A stretch of 64,000 nucleotides of DNA. Origin: Alphaproteobacteria bacterium (GTDB lineage: Bacteria; Pseudomonadota; Alphaproteobacteria; UBA9219; RFNS01). The stretch is taken from the NCBI GenBank assembly GCA_037200005.1, contig JBBCGY010000002.1, forward strand, positions 248,001-312,000. The letters run 5' to 3'. A program made the position numbers and the translations under genes. This document shows, piece after piece, positions 55,016 through 59,384 of this stretch. The notes under the pieces were generated by a model that had not been told where the DNA came from, did not search any database, and saw only the letters and a program-made list of their open reading frames with translations. Each line of letters opens with the position of its first letter. The first letter of the stretch is position 1.

Positions 55016-55564
55016 CTAAAATTCCACGAGCGGCTGCTTGAGATATTCTTCTTCCGCCGCCGTGGAGGGACGGCCGAGAATCTTGTTTCTTTCCGGGAAA
55101 TGGCCGAAACGCAGAACCGTATTATAGTTATGTTCGGCATGGCCGAGCCAGACCGGATGCTTGGTGCGTTCGCGGATGTAGAACAATGCGAGCCGCTGAT
55201 CGCCCATATTTTCGGAATGCGCGAAGGGCAGATAGAAGCATAATTTGTAAGACGTGCCGATCCGGTCGTCGAAATGCTTGATGATGCCGGTTCGCGCCAA
55301 CTCGAGCGCGGCGTCGTCGGTGGCGAAAGCGCGCGGCGTGTTCCGGAACATATGGCGCGGAAACTGGTCAAGCAGCAGCATCAGCGAGAGCATGCCGGTG
55401 GGCGTGTCTTCCCAGGCCGACATTCCGCCGCCTGCCGCGCGTTCGTGATCTTCCAGGAAGCGTTTGGTGATCTCCTGGTCGCGTTCGGGGCTGCTGGCGA
55501 ACCAATTGTCCGCGCCAACCTCGTTAAACCAGTAATCAAGAACTTCTTCGGGCGCAGTGCTCAT
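55016..55564 (-). CDS. DUF924 family protein
   Basis: 182 aa. Conserved blocks: EVLDYWFNEVG, LSLMLLLDQFPRHMFRNTPR, FYLPFAHSENMGDQRLAL and ERNKILGRPSTAAEEEYL. All-helical, TPR-like fold. Function not known. Convergent with the amidase (9 bases between stops). Confidence 0.9.
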   Translation of the reverse strand: MSTAPEEVLDYWFNEVGADNWFASSPERDQEITKRFLEDHERAAGGGMSAWEDTPTGMLSLMLLLDQFPRHMFRNTPRAFATDDAALELARTGIIKHFDDRIGTSYKLCFYLPFAHSENMGDQRLALFYIRERTKHPVWLGHAEHNYNTVLRFGHFPERNKILGRPSTAAEEEYLKQPLVEF

Positions 55565-55693: not shown

Positions 55694-56584
55694 TTACCCT
55701 GCTACCAAGCCCGCGGGTTGCCATAGAGCCTTATGATCAGGCCGCGAGGGCGATGTCTCCTGCTTTCCAGGCATGGTGAAGAATAGGGTCGTATTGATGA
55801 TCTGGGGCGTCGCTTTCGTGCCGCGCCTGAAGCGAAGATTGAGGCCATTGCCCGCTTGCGGTTCGAGCGGGCTGTAGAGCAGCTTATGAACCCCTTCGGA
55901 ACTGCGAATGGCCAGGGTTTTATTTCCCGGACTGGCATGAATTTGCCGCATGACGCTATTTTTATCGCCGACCAGGCTGGCGATAAAAACAATCGGGTTG
56001 GCCGAATAATCATAATGTTCGCCGGCGGTGCAGCGATATTGAACCGCATCGGAGGAAAGGCCCGATTTTTTGATGAAATCGCGGCCCAATGCCGCCGCTT
56101 CAGGGTCGTTGTCGAGGCAAACGATGCGGCTGCCGGTTTTTTGATGCATGAGGATCGCGCTAAGCGGCAAGGGACCCGCGCCGACGAAAGCGATGCTTTC
56201 ATGTTTCGCAAGGCGGGGACGTCCGAGCTGTTCCAGCTCGGCATCGACCAGGCCGTCATAGTTTTCAAAATAGCGGAAATCCTGCAGGCGGCGTCCGCTG
56301 AGGACGGCGCTGTCATACAGTTCCATGGCCGATTCCGCCTGCGATAGTCTTTCCCACATGCGGCTCTGGTTGGCGGCGATATCGTCATGCTGAAGAATAG
56401 CGCGGGTTTCCGCGGGATTAAACGGCATCGAAACGGCGCCGACCAGCGCGGAAAGGTCGCGGCTGATGAGGGGATTGTTCGGCGATAAATCGGAGGCGTT
56501 CGTCACGGTATCGCGCGCGCGCCGGTAAGCTGCGATGACATGTTTGACTTTGGTCTGGTCGGCGGATTCATAAATATTACGCAT
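55694..56584 (-). CDS. Nicotianamine synthase-like protein B
   Basis: 296 aa. C-terminal SAM-binding Rossmann domain with IAFVGAGPLPLSAILMHQKT (residues 131-150), CLDNDPEAAALGRDFIKKSG and AIRSSEGVHKLLYSPLE. Upstream, FRYFENYDGLVDAELEQL aligns with the helix carrying the catalytic Glu of archaeal NAS (here E116). The family condenses aminobutyrate units from SAM into nicotianamine or, in CntL-type enzymes, onto an amino acid. NAS motifs are better kept than in protein A. Third gene of the cluster, 48 bases after the methyltransferase. Confidence 0.85.
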   Translation of the reverse strand: MRNIYESADQTKVKHVIAAYRRARDTVTNASDLSPNNPLISRDLSALVGAVSMPFNPAETRAILQHDDIAANQSRMWERLSQAESAMELYDSAVLSGRRLQDFRYFENYDGLVDAELEQLGRPRLAKHESIAFVGAGPLPLSAILMHQKTGSRIVCLDNDPEAAALGRDFIKKSGLSSDAVQYRCTAGEHYDYSANPIVFIASLVGDKNSVMRQIHASPGNKTLAIRSSEGVHKLLYSPLEPQAGNGLNLRFRRGTKATPQIINTTLFFTMPGKQETSPSRPDHKALWQPAGLVAG

Positions 56585-56632
56585 CGTTTGTCTTTCAAAG
56601 AACGGTTACGGGTGCTGTTCGATTGGCGGGCG

Positions 56633-57328
56633 TTATGTCTTCCTGCATCGGAATAAAATTTTATGATCGACGTGATAGTTCAGGCTGTCGATCACGCGCG
56701 GAAAATAGGTATTGTCCGGCTTTAATTTGATAAAATCGTCGATCAGGTATTTTTGCGCGCTGACTTCAAAACCGGCGCTCCAGAACGCGCGGGCATAGTC
56801 GTCCAGAGCGTAATCCTGAACCGGCAGATTACTGGTTTCCGCGATCAGCTTCGTCCATGCCGGCCATAGCGGGTTTTCGGTATGGCAGCCGATGGCATAG
56901 TAATAGACGCCGCCCGGCTTCAGGACTTGATGGATTTGCCGGGCATGGGCCGCGAGATCGGGCAGCAGATAGACGACCTCATGGCTGAACGCGCAGTCGT
57001 AGCGTTCCTGCCAGGGATCGGGAGCGCTGGCGTGGTGATAGCGGATCGGCGCCGCGCTTTTGTTCTCGGCGGCGCGCGCCAGGGATTCGAGAGCGATGTC
57101 GACGCCGACCGCGAGGCGGTAGGGATGCGACTGATAGAGCCGCCTCAGGAAGCCGCCCTGATTGCAGCCGAAATCGAGAACGGCGGCCTGCGTCAAATCA
57201 AGGTCGCCGAGCTTTTCGATCATGCGCTGCCATAAATAATCATGCTCATCCTCCATGCCGTTCTCTTCGGCGGAGTCGCGGTACCATGTTGCGATCGATT
57301 GCGCGGCGGCGGTTGGGCTGTTTTTCAT
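56633..57328 (-). CDS. Class I SAM-dependent methyltransferase
   Basis: 231 aa from MKNSPTAAAQSIATWYRD (GGAAAG ribosome site). SAM motif I AVLDFGCNQGGFLRRL (residues 49-64), acidic D77 in VGVDIALESL, motif post-I YDCAFSHEVVYLLPDL and LKPGGVYYYAIG. It sits between two NAS-like genes in one orientation, so it may methylate their product. Substrate unknown. Confidence 0.9.
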   Translation of the reverse strand: MKNSPTAAAQSIATWYRDSAEENGMEDEHDYLWQRMIEKLGDLDLTQAAVLDFGCNQGGFLRRLYQSHPYRLAVGVDIALESLARAAENKSAAPIRYHHASAPDPWQERYDCAFSHEVVYLLPDLAAHARQIHQVLKPGGVYYYAIGCHTENPLWPAWTKLIAETSNLPVQDYALDDYARAFWSAGFEVSAQKYLIDDFIKLKPDNTYFPRVIDSLNYHVDHKILFRCRKT

Positions 57329-57356
57329 GTGATTTGCTTTCCGTAAAATGAATTTT

Positions 57357-58484
57357 CTAAATCGGAGATTGATCCGCCTGGCTTCTCCAAAGCCGGCGTT
57401 GGCGATACAAGCTGATATCTTCCAGATTCTCGGGGCCGAAATCCCAATTGGCCTTGGCGTTCGGATCGCATTTTTTCTGCGGCAGCCTGAACAGCAGGCT
57501 GGTGTTGTAAGGCGATCGGCCGTCCCCGGATTTTCCGCTGGTTTTCTTGACCAGATATATCTCATAGGCCTGCTGGTTGGCCGCGTCGAACGGCTGGAAC
57601 AGCAGTTCGTTGCCGCCCTCGGCGCTGCGGATCAGGATCGAGGTGCAGGTGTTGCTGCTGGCGCATATCTGGCTCAGCACGGCTTCACGATTGGGGACCG
57701 AAGCGTCGATGATGATAAGCGGGTTGGTGACATAATCGAACTTCGTCGGCTGCATGCACAGCAGGCTGATGCCGTGATTGTTCTGCTGCTTCTGCGGCTG
57801 ATGATGGCCGAGATGGTCGAGAAGGCGACGCGTGACGTCGTAGGTTTTTTCGCACGGATCGATGCAGGTGATGCGTAGGCCGGTCTTTTGGTGAAGCAGA
57901 ATGGCCGTCAGGGGCACCGAGCCAGAACTGACATAAACGACGCTTTGATGCGCGTTCATGCCCGGCATGATGCGCGGCATCCCGAGCAGCTTCATCTCCG
58001 AATCGACGAGGCTGCGGTAGTGATCGAGCAGGACGGAATCCCTGCTGCGATCCATCCAGTCCTGGAAGGCGGATGGGCTCGATCCATGCGTGAAGTAGGC
58101 ATTAACCGCCTGCCGGTCGATAATGGATTCGGCGCGCAGGTAATGATAGCGCAGACTCGGCACCGCCCTTCCGACTGGTTCCGAAGCCAGCAGGCGGCGG
58201 GCAGAGGTTTCGGGAAGCGAGACCGTCCATTTGACGAAATCGCCGATTTTGGCTTGCCGGGCGGGCGGCAAATCCTGCTGCGGCTCCAGGCCCAGCAGGG
58301 ATTCGGAGAAGGCCAGAACCGCGTCGACGGTTTTCTGCGGCGGGGGATTATGCGTATCCGCGCATGCTTCCTGCCGGGTCGCGGCGAAGGCTTTCCGGCC
58401 GTTCTCGAAAACCGGTCGAAGCTGCGTTTCGGCAAACTGGGAATGAGCGGCGGACTGCATGAGCGGAGGGCAGGTCTTCATCAT
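57357..58484 (-). CDS. Nicotianamine synthase-like protein A
   Basis: 375 aa, longer at the N-terminus than protein B. SAM domain SVVYVSSGSVPLTAILLHQK (residues 181-200) with the glycine loop degenerate (SSGSVPL in place of GxGPLPL), then CIDPCEKTYDVTRRLLDHLG and ILIRSAEGGNELLFQPFD. The upstream helix LLDHYRSLVDSEMKLLGMPR has Glu at 163, aligning with E116 of protein B. First gene of the three-gene cluster; a palindrome lies 14 bases before its ATG. No strong ribosome site; a second Met at residue 9 is possible. It may have a different substrate or a non-catalytic partner role. Confidence 0.82.
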   Translation of the reverse strand: MMKTCPPLMQSAAHSQFAETQLRPVFENGRKAFAATRQEACADTHNPPPQKTVDAVLAFSESLLGLEPQQDLPPARQAKIGDFVKWTVSLPETSARRLLASEPVGRAVPSLRYHYLRAESIIDRQAVNAYFTHGSSPSAFQDWMDRSRDSVLLDHYRSLVDSEMKLLGMPRIMPGMNAHQSVVYVSSGSVPLTAILLHQKTGLRITCIDPCEKTYDVTRRLLDHLGHHQPQKQQNNHGISLLCMQPTKFDYVTNPLIIIDASVPNREAVLSQICASSNTCTSILIRSAEGGNELLFQPFDAANQQAYEIYLVKKTSGKSGDGRSPYNTSLLFRLPQKKCDPNAKANWDFGPENLEDISLYRQRRLWRSQADQSPI

Positions 58485-58497
58485 GAGGAAGAAGGAA

Positions 58498-58530
58498 ATT
58501 CTTACTAGTGATAGTAAGAATTATTGTCAA
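58498..58530 (-). promoter_or_regulatory. Promoter with 10-bp palindromic operator before the NAS-like cluster
   Basis: Minus strand: TTGACA (58530-58525), 17-base spacer, TAGTAA (58507-58502). A perfect inverted repeat ATTCTTACTA/TAGTAAGAAT (58521-58512 and 58507-58498, 4-base centre) covers the spacer end and the -10. A repressor bound here would block RNA polymerase. Predicted leader about 10 bases. Confidence 0.65.
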
Positions 58531-58613: not shown

Positions 58614-59384
58614 TCAATGCAGCTTATGCCATACGCGGCGCTTCACGACATACATGATCCCGGCAAAGACGATCAGGAACAAAATGACCTTGATGCCGGT
58701 CTGTTTGCGGATTTCCAGCTTCGGCTCCGCGGCCCAGGTCAGGAAGGTCGCGACATCCTTGGACATCTGCGCGACGGTGGCTTTGGTGCCGTCGGCATAG
58801 GTGACCTGGTCGTTAGTCAGGGGCGGCGGCATGGCGATCTGGTGGCCTGAGAAGCTGGCATTGTAATACATGCCCGCCATCAGCGTCACGCCTTCGGGCG
58901 GTTTTTCCTCATAGCCGGTCAGAAGCGAATAGATGTAGTTTTCTCCGCCGTGGCGTGCCTTGACGATCAAGGACAGATCGGGCGGCAGAGCGCCGTTATT
59001 CGCCGCACGCGCCGCCATGTCGTTGGGGAAGGGCTTGACGAAACGATCGGAGGGAAGGCCGGGCCGCTGGAACATTTCTCCTTCGTCGTTGGGGCCGTCC
59101 GCGACTTGATAGCCGGAGGCAATCGCCTTCACTTCATCGGCGGTGAAACCGATATCGACGAGATTGCGGTAGGAGAGAAGGTGAAGGCCATGGCATGTCG
59201 CGCAGACTTCCTTATAGACCTGAAAGCCGCGCTGCAACGACGCGCGGTCGAAGGTGCCGGTGATGCCTGCATGATGCCATCCGCCCGCCGGTTCGCGCAG
59301 CGGCGCGGTGTCTTCCGAGGCCATGAGCGCGGGCGCATACAAGAGAGCGGCGGCGAGGAGCAAGGCATAACGATAATTTTTCAT
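58614..59384 (-). CDS. petC: Cytochrome c1 of the bc1 complex
   Basis: 256 aa. Signal peptide [20 protein letters not shown]; heme site CATCHG (C61, C64, H65); axial Met in the [20 protein letters not shown] segment; C-terminal membrane anchor near residue 230. Accepts electrons from the Rieske centre and passes them to cytochrome c in the periplasm. Its start overlaps petB by four bases. Confidence 0.97.

Follow-up and report, generated by a model that had tools for sequence, protein, structure and literature searches.

A candidate iron-responsive operon encoding two divergent nicotianamine synthase homologues and a methyltransferase in an alphaproteobacterial genome

The window analysed here, a 64-kb stretch of the 2.36-Mb, two-contig genome of an alphaproteobacterium (contig JBBCGY010000002.1, positions 248,001 to 312,000), contains a three-gene operon encoding two divergent homologues of nicotianamine synthase (NAS) and, between them, a class I S-adenosylmethionine (SAM)-dependent methyltransferase. 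We give a probability of roughly 0.57 to the reading of these genes as an iron-responsive operon whose product, a nicotianamine-type chelator, is made independently of a dehydrogenase; this product is probably an undescribed, plant-like metal chelator. The reading draws on the active-site residues of the NAS homologues, on the opine dehydrogenase missing from the genome, and on a predicted Fur box in front of the operon.

The three co-oriented open reading frames (ORFs) were confirmed at their expected coordinates on the minus strand, in the order gene 1 (57357-58484; protein A of a first-pass annotation made from the sequence alone), methyltransferase gene (56633-57328) and gene 3 (55694-56584; protein B of that annotation). 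They are separated by 28 nt, from the gene 1 stop to the methyltransferase ATG at 57328, and by 48 nt, from the methyltransferase stop to the gene 3 ATG, and constitute a tight operon. The first-pass annotation had described two NAS-like genes flanking a methyltransferase, an arrangement borne out by the ORF positions and by the PF13489 match of the middle gene (E 3e-15). Further, the SAM-loop and RSxEGxxxLL motifs that it had quoted were all found in the ORFs concerned, as SSGSVPLTAIL and RSAEGGNELL in gene 1, and as GAGPLPLSAIL and RSSEGVHKLL in gene 3.

The gene 3 product (296 aa) is a clear NAS homologue in sequence, which meets the gathering score of the Pfam NAS profile PF03059 (65.3 bits, E 7e-18; cut-off 27.1) and matches the archaeal thermonicotianamine synthase MtNAS (3fpg) with an E value of 2e-12. 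Its residues E84, E88 and Y109 are the equivalents of E73, E77 and Y106 of the plant enzyme AtNAS1, while a profile alignment places MtNAS E81 at E88, and MtNAS Y107 corresponds to Y109; the predicted active site is complete and plant-type. E81 and Y107 are the proposed bases of MtNAS (PMC10491745), and E77, Y106 and E73 are essential in AtNAS1, E73 being needed for nicotianamine formation (PMC10248798). In the region of AtNAS1 206-VGMD-209, the gene 3 sequence reads LVGDK; the alignment, which contained no plant sequence, shows a 4-residue gap there against the NAS of L042 and L043. A scan of the genome collection with gene 3 as sole query returned no relative, the same query found no match in viral contigs, and an alignment of 13 NAS sequences offered no stretch conserved enough to serve as a scan query.

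Gene 1, the first of the operon, encodes a divergent NAS homologue of 375 aa, which scored 20.5 bits against PF03059 (E 3e-4), under the 27.1 cut-off; the profile search thus upheld the NAS assignment proposed in the annotation for gene 3 and failed to do so for gene 1. Other evidence places it. The protein shares 31% identity with the NAS of G003, a genome of the same family as the window genome (E 2e-40), and 31% with gene 3 (E ~2e-26). Its AlphaFold model (mean predicted local distance difference test score, pLDDT, of 77, with a core mostly >85) recovered the NAS fold, the 12 best PDB matches being all MtNAS or the bacterial NAS-family enzyme CntL, with template modelling scores that reach 0.81 when normalised by the chain of MtNAS. 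On account of this sequence similarity and predicted fold, and not of the Pfam score, gene 1 can be placed in the NAS family, the resemblance being far beyond chance. Both proteins are therefore NAS-like, as first proposed, with gene 3 above the profile cut-off, gene 1 homologous, and neither falling in an unrelated SAM family. The two genes are not equivalent, since only gene 1 combines an Asp (D123) at the position of the catalytic Glu (MtNAS E81) with an altered SAM loop, where a Ser replaces the first Gly. Each of these two substitutions is unique among 28 NAS sequences, and the loop Pro is likewise a Ser; the E73-type Glu (E119), the active-site Tyr and R286 are retained.

AtNAS1 E73 sits four residues N-terminal of E77, at the position of gene 3 E84 and gene 1 E119, and has been described as conserved across plant NAS and different in microbial NAS-like proteins (PMC10248798). 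In our alignments, this Glu was present in all 18 NAS regarded as dehydrogenase-free, a term that denotes no dehydrogenase gene within the fetched stretch (some contigs being short), and in none of the nine dehydrogenase-linked, or CntL-type, proteins. The former set comprised 17 alphaproteobacterial sequences, both window genes included, and one archaeal sequence (Halocatena); the latter, those of S. aureus, Paenibacillus, Priestia, the L086 fusion, two Vibrio, Photobacterium, Arsenophonus and S. epidermidis. The last five of these were fetched after the rule had been stated, and all five carry Leu or Val at the position. Similarly, the Tyr equivalent to MtNAS Y107 occurs in 16/18 dehydrogenase-free proteins vs 0/9 linked ones. 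MtNAS itself, excluded from both sets of the 27, has Gly at the E73 position and nevertheless functions with no dehydrogenase; the residue is thus a marker, not a proof of chemistry. Since both window enzymes carry the Glu lacking in every linked CntL compared, their sequences class them as plant-type and not CntL-type, and a missing dehydrogenase is therefore expected.

The staphylopine, pseudopaline and yersinopine pathways need the opine dehydrogenase (PMC7438024). A profile search of the whole genome found no PF10100 opine dehydrogenase, which extends to the genome scale what the annotation had reported for the window. The functional models that it had put forward, namely staphylopine CntL and its pseudopaline homologue, proved not to be the closest ones, as both proteins carry the plant-type Glu; against the CntL model NF033601, whose equivalog cut-off is 350, gene 3 gave a weak 32.7 bits and gene 1, 17.6 bits.

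Upstream of gene 1, a predicted Fur box, GACAATAATTCTTACTATC (minus strand, read towards gene 1), occupies positions 58510-58528, with 14/19 Fur-consensus matches on the other strand. It is the only site with at least 14 consensus matches in the 64 kb (probability ~0.01 in shuffles of the upstream stretch), and a degenerate pattern of the Fur box, allowing up to two mismatches, matched the 2.36-Mb genome once, at this very site. A matrix built from the boxes before NAS at six other alphaproteobacterial loci (L020, L039, L018, L044, L046 and L047) ranked 58510-58528 first of 63,982 positions, with a score of 18.2 vs 10.3 for the runner-up, each of the six sites having been chosen as a good Fur-consensus match upstream, which favours finding similar sites. 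When each of these loci was left out in turn, its own site came first in four and second in two, the first-ranked site of L044 being an overlapping register. The genome encodes a Fur protein (133 bits; C2:465724), plus one other member of the family, and Fur would bind at 58510-58528. Because five other NAS loci (L019, L040, L041, L043 and L045) show no good Fur-type box, such a box is, as judged by these matches, common rather than universal at related NAS loci. A second strong Fur-type site was seen at L039:11156-11174, just past the double-NAS operon of G249.

Other elements surround the box. A perfect palindrome with 11-nt arms and a 4-nt spacer (58497-58522) overlaps it and stops 13 nt short of the start of gene 1; it was considered as a regulon-defining element and rejected because the exact copy is unrepeated in the genome, where no second copy was found at up to two mismatches and, at three, matches were not above a control pattern. 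Read by eye, a perfect -35-like hexamer TTGACA (58525-58530, minus strand) lies at the edge of the box and may pair with a poor -10-like TAGTAA (58502-58507), 17 nt further on; as the latter is weak, the putative promoter is absent from the consensus-scan list. No Rfam match was found in the 54.5-60 kb interval of the window.

In the course of events that we infer, iron shortage would release Fur from its operator (58510-58528), and the three genes would be transcribed. Gene 3 would then link 3-amino-3-carboxypropyl units derived from SAM, its only substrate, into an aminobutyrate chain with release of methylthioadenosine, and no opine dehydrogenase would be needed because the chain would be built from SAM as in plant and fungal NAS. 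The methyltransferase would methylate this chelator or its precursor, and gene 1 would act as a second NAS, either adding a unit with altered chemistry or serving as a non-catalytic partner of gene 3. The product would bind a metal and be either secreted or used inside the cell. A more specific version, which we hold as tentative and rather doubtful, is that the two NAS work one after the other or as a heterodimer and that the chain is methylated by the methyltransferase to give a methylated nicotianamine-type metallophore, made with no dehydrogenase and induced by iron shortage, a comparable pathway of double NAS and methyltransferase having arisen independently in another alphaproteobacterial family.

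Among the sampled relatives, few genomes carry a true NAS gene. NAS above the Pfam cut-off occurred in 11/385 sampled genomes of the class; in a phylum sample of 398 genomes, only the window genome exceeded it. Within the order, a NAS is present in 4/33 genomes. In the tree, gene 1 clusters with two NAS, the single ones of G003 and G013 (support 96/92), showing the longest end branch of its clade (1.88), and gene 3 groups with the NAS of G017 and G077 (88/93). A recent tandem duplication was rejected as the origin of the pair, since the two genes belong to different NAS clades. The G003 member of the gene 1 clade also has a methyltransferase adjoining its NAS. Inspection of neighbourhoods in related genomes, which had been recommended in the annotation, revealed that such pairs recur among alphaproteobacteria: of the 14 NAS-bearing genomes seen, six have NAS beside a methyltransferase and four have a double NAS. 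G096 and G215 each carry two adjacent NAS genes that form a clade of their own (100/97); downstream of the pair comes a class I methyltransferase from a different family, and these operons are independent of that in the window. In G096, an EamA exporter gene lies immediately upstream of the double NAS, the G215 operon adds GNAT and a second methyltransferase, and G039 has a NAS fragment with a methyltransferase of the G096/G215 type. Operons with a double NAS and an other-family methyltransferase were located at L040:3-3200 and L041:6637-10320.

The methyltransferase of the window has 231 aa from the ATG at 57328, a start consistent with the family alignment; were the ORF extended to 57565, it would run into gene 1. 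Its predicted structure is a standard class I fold (pLDDT 90) with no informative single nearest relative, and its family is coherent in alignment. Members stand directly beside NAS in three alphaproteobacteria, namely the window genome, G003 (L020; 55% identical, ~12 nt before NAS) and G249 (L039; ~44% identical, overlapping the first of two NAS genes), and another lies within the opine-metallophore cluster, with NAS and dehydrogenase, of Paenibacillus sp. 37 (L054). Among the 80 best loci of the family, 26, most of them rhizobial, have the methyltransferase next to a complete FecBCDE-type importer without NAS, and these proteins perhaps handle imported chelates. The genes around many other members are unremarkable (a DEAD-box helicase, for example), and the notion of a family exclusive to metallophores was accordingly rejected; the link to metallophores is recurrent and non-exclusive.

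Further loci of this methyltransferase family were recorded. At L086:728-7915, in a metagenome-assembled genome (MAG) labelled Armatimonadetes, a member 47-49% identical to that of the window lies near a NAS-opine dehydrogenase fusion (675 aa ORF), which is followed by an EamA-type exporter; ABC-2 genes are also present. Besides L053:8989-13443, 26 more loci within L080-L151 have a member beside a FecBCDE-type importer and no NAS; the majority are rhizobial. At L055:8977-11219, in S. epidermidis, a member precedes the gene of a substrate-binding protein that shares 25% identity with CntA, and the species' own cnt operon lies far away on the same record.

Several points weigh against the proposed iron-responsive, dehydrogenase-independent operon. 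They include the way in which the matrix sites were chosen and the NAS loci without a good Fur-type box, the dehydrogenase-free function of MtNAS without the E73-type Glu, and, among window ORFs and domain matches, the lack of any transporter, TonB receptor or exporter adjoining the operon. Moreover, with its catalytic Glu changed to Asp and one SAM-loop Gly lost, gene 1 may be inactive. That it is a catalytically dead NAS paralogue, retained as a regulatory or structural partner while gene 3 and the methyltransferase perform the chemistry, is a real prospect, if somewhat short of even odds, and is compatible with the remainder of the proposal. The two unique substitutions and the long end branch favour this view, as does the choice of the equivalent Glu for replacement by Gln (E81Q, E84Q) in solved structures of MtNAS and CntL; nevertheless, Asp is able to substitute for Glu as a base, and the ORF is intact, with E119, the active-site Tyr, R286 and the fold all preserved.

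The methyltransferase family is also common without any NAS, as in Reyranella and rhizobia, so that it may act on something other than the NAS product. The enzyme could accordingly be an unrelated passenger that serves some other small molecule, with unmodified nicotianamine or a relative as the chelator, for intracellular use, as would fit the lack of an adjoining transporter and the internal use of nicotianamine by plants. We consider this unlikely, given that the gene sits between two NAS genes at distances of tens of nucleotides, that in G003 and G249, too, a member lies ~12 nt from NAS or overlaps it, that about a third of the 80 best family loci adjoin a FecBCDE-type importer, and that an unrelated methyltransferase is paired with another double NAS. 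Less probable still, and in our judgement improbable, is a CntL-type opine metallophore, in which NAS would load aminobutyrate on His and a dehydrogenase of another family, encoded elsewhere, would complete the opine. The same-family methyltransferases in or beside the NAS and dehydrogenase clusters of Paenibacillus sp. 37 and the Armatimonadetes-labelled MAG, as well as the weak CntL-model match of gene 3, speak for it; against it stand the genome without PF10100, scores far from the equivalog cut-off, and the equivalents of E84 and Y109 in both window proteins, absent from all nine linked ones.

Several known systems bear comparison with the operon and its proposed dehydrogenase-independent product. 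Comparable logic is found in the BtaA/BtaB betaine-lipid pathway, where a class I methyltransferase carries out N-methylation after an aminocarboxypropyl transfer from SAM, although BtaA is not a NAS and the acceptor is diacylglycerol. Gene 3 shares with plant and fungal NAS, represented by AtNAS1, the family, the three essential residues and a chemistry in which a dehydrogenase is unnecessary; unlike them, the window has a bacterial operon with a second, divergent NAS, a methyltransferase and a Fur-type box. MtNAS is the best PDB match for both window proteins, does without dehydrogenase, and shares its catalytic Glu and Tyr with gene 3, but carries Gly at the position of the plant-type Glu of both window proteins, and gene 1 has Asp for its E81. 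CntL of the staphylopine, pseudopaline and yersinopine systems is also of the NAS family, and an aminobutyrate transfer from SAM would be expected in common; these systems differ from the window in their CntM dehydrogenase, adjoining transporter and active-site residues, and in the CntL-model score.

NAS enzymes, methyltransferases in zincophore clusters and a cluster with an extra cntL are known already. The opine-like zincophore clusters, some with extra methyltransferases and one with an additional cntL, resemble the window in their NAS and methyltransferase neighbourhoods, but each of them was found via CntM and includes it; the survey in question, on bacterial nicotianamine-like metallophores, took the opine dehydrogenase as its starting point and notes that systems lacking this enzyme would escape it (PMC7438024). 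A literature search found no N-methylated nicotianamine metallophore, and no prior description of a dehydrogenase-free operon with double NAS, methyltransferase and Fur-type box, or of the residue rule, was found in the sources searched, to which the principal review on bacterial NAS, by Laffont and Arnoux (2020), did not belong, so that an earlier mention is possible. The window thereby represents a concrete, small class of dehydrogenase-free NAS operons with recurrent methyltransferase partners and a Fur-type box pointing to iron. The one-residue marker splits the dehydrogenase-free from the opine class with no exception in 27 sequences (MtNAS, with Gly, lying outside both sets). For moss and plant NAS genes, a study from 2025 found that transfer from microbes had taken place repeatedly, and it saw an obstacle in how little is known of NAS among bacteria (PMC12454661); bacterial NAS with the plant-type Glu make a microbial origin of plant NAS more testable.

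As for the genomic setting, the operon is flanked by a cytochrome c1 gene (58614-59384) and a DUF924 gene (55016-55564), with an amidase also among the neighbours, and the genome encodes two TonB receptors. NAS matches in L048-L050 were rejected, as they were below the cut-off, two being of the CheR type and one an unrelated methyltransferase. At L022:8445-9464, a marginal NAS-like protein (27.2 bits) lies among ketosynthase-like, acyl-ligase and reductase genes and could be a different aminocarboxypropyl transferase. At L042:9278-13474, L044:2-2303 and L045:7434-9769, NAS adjoins DapE/ArgE-like M20 deacylases, with a GNAT acetyltransferase nearby in two of the three, which suggests an acyl-protected intermediate or diaminopimelate-related chemistry. 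Finally, at L046:9311-11133, NAS is preceded by a Fur-type box and directly followed by an ATP-grasp (GshB/RimK-like) ligase gene, for which peptide-like tailoring of the NAS product is a possible role.

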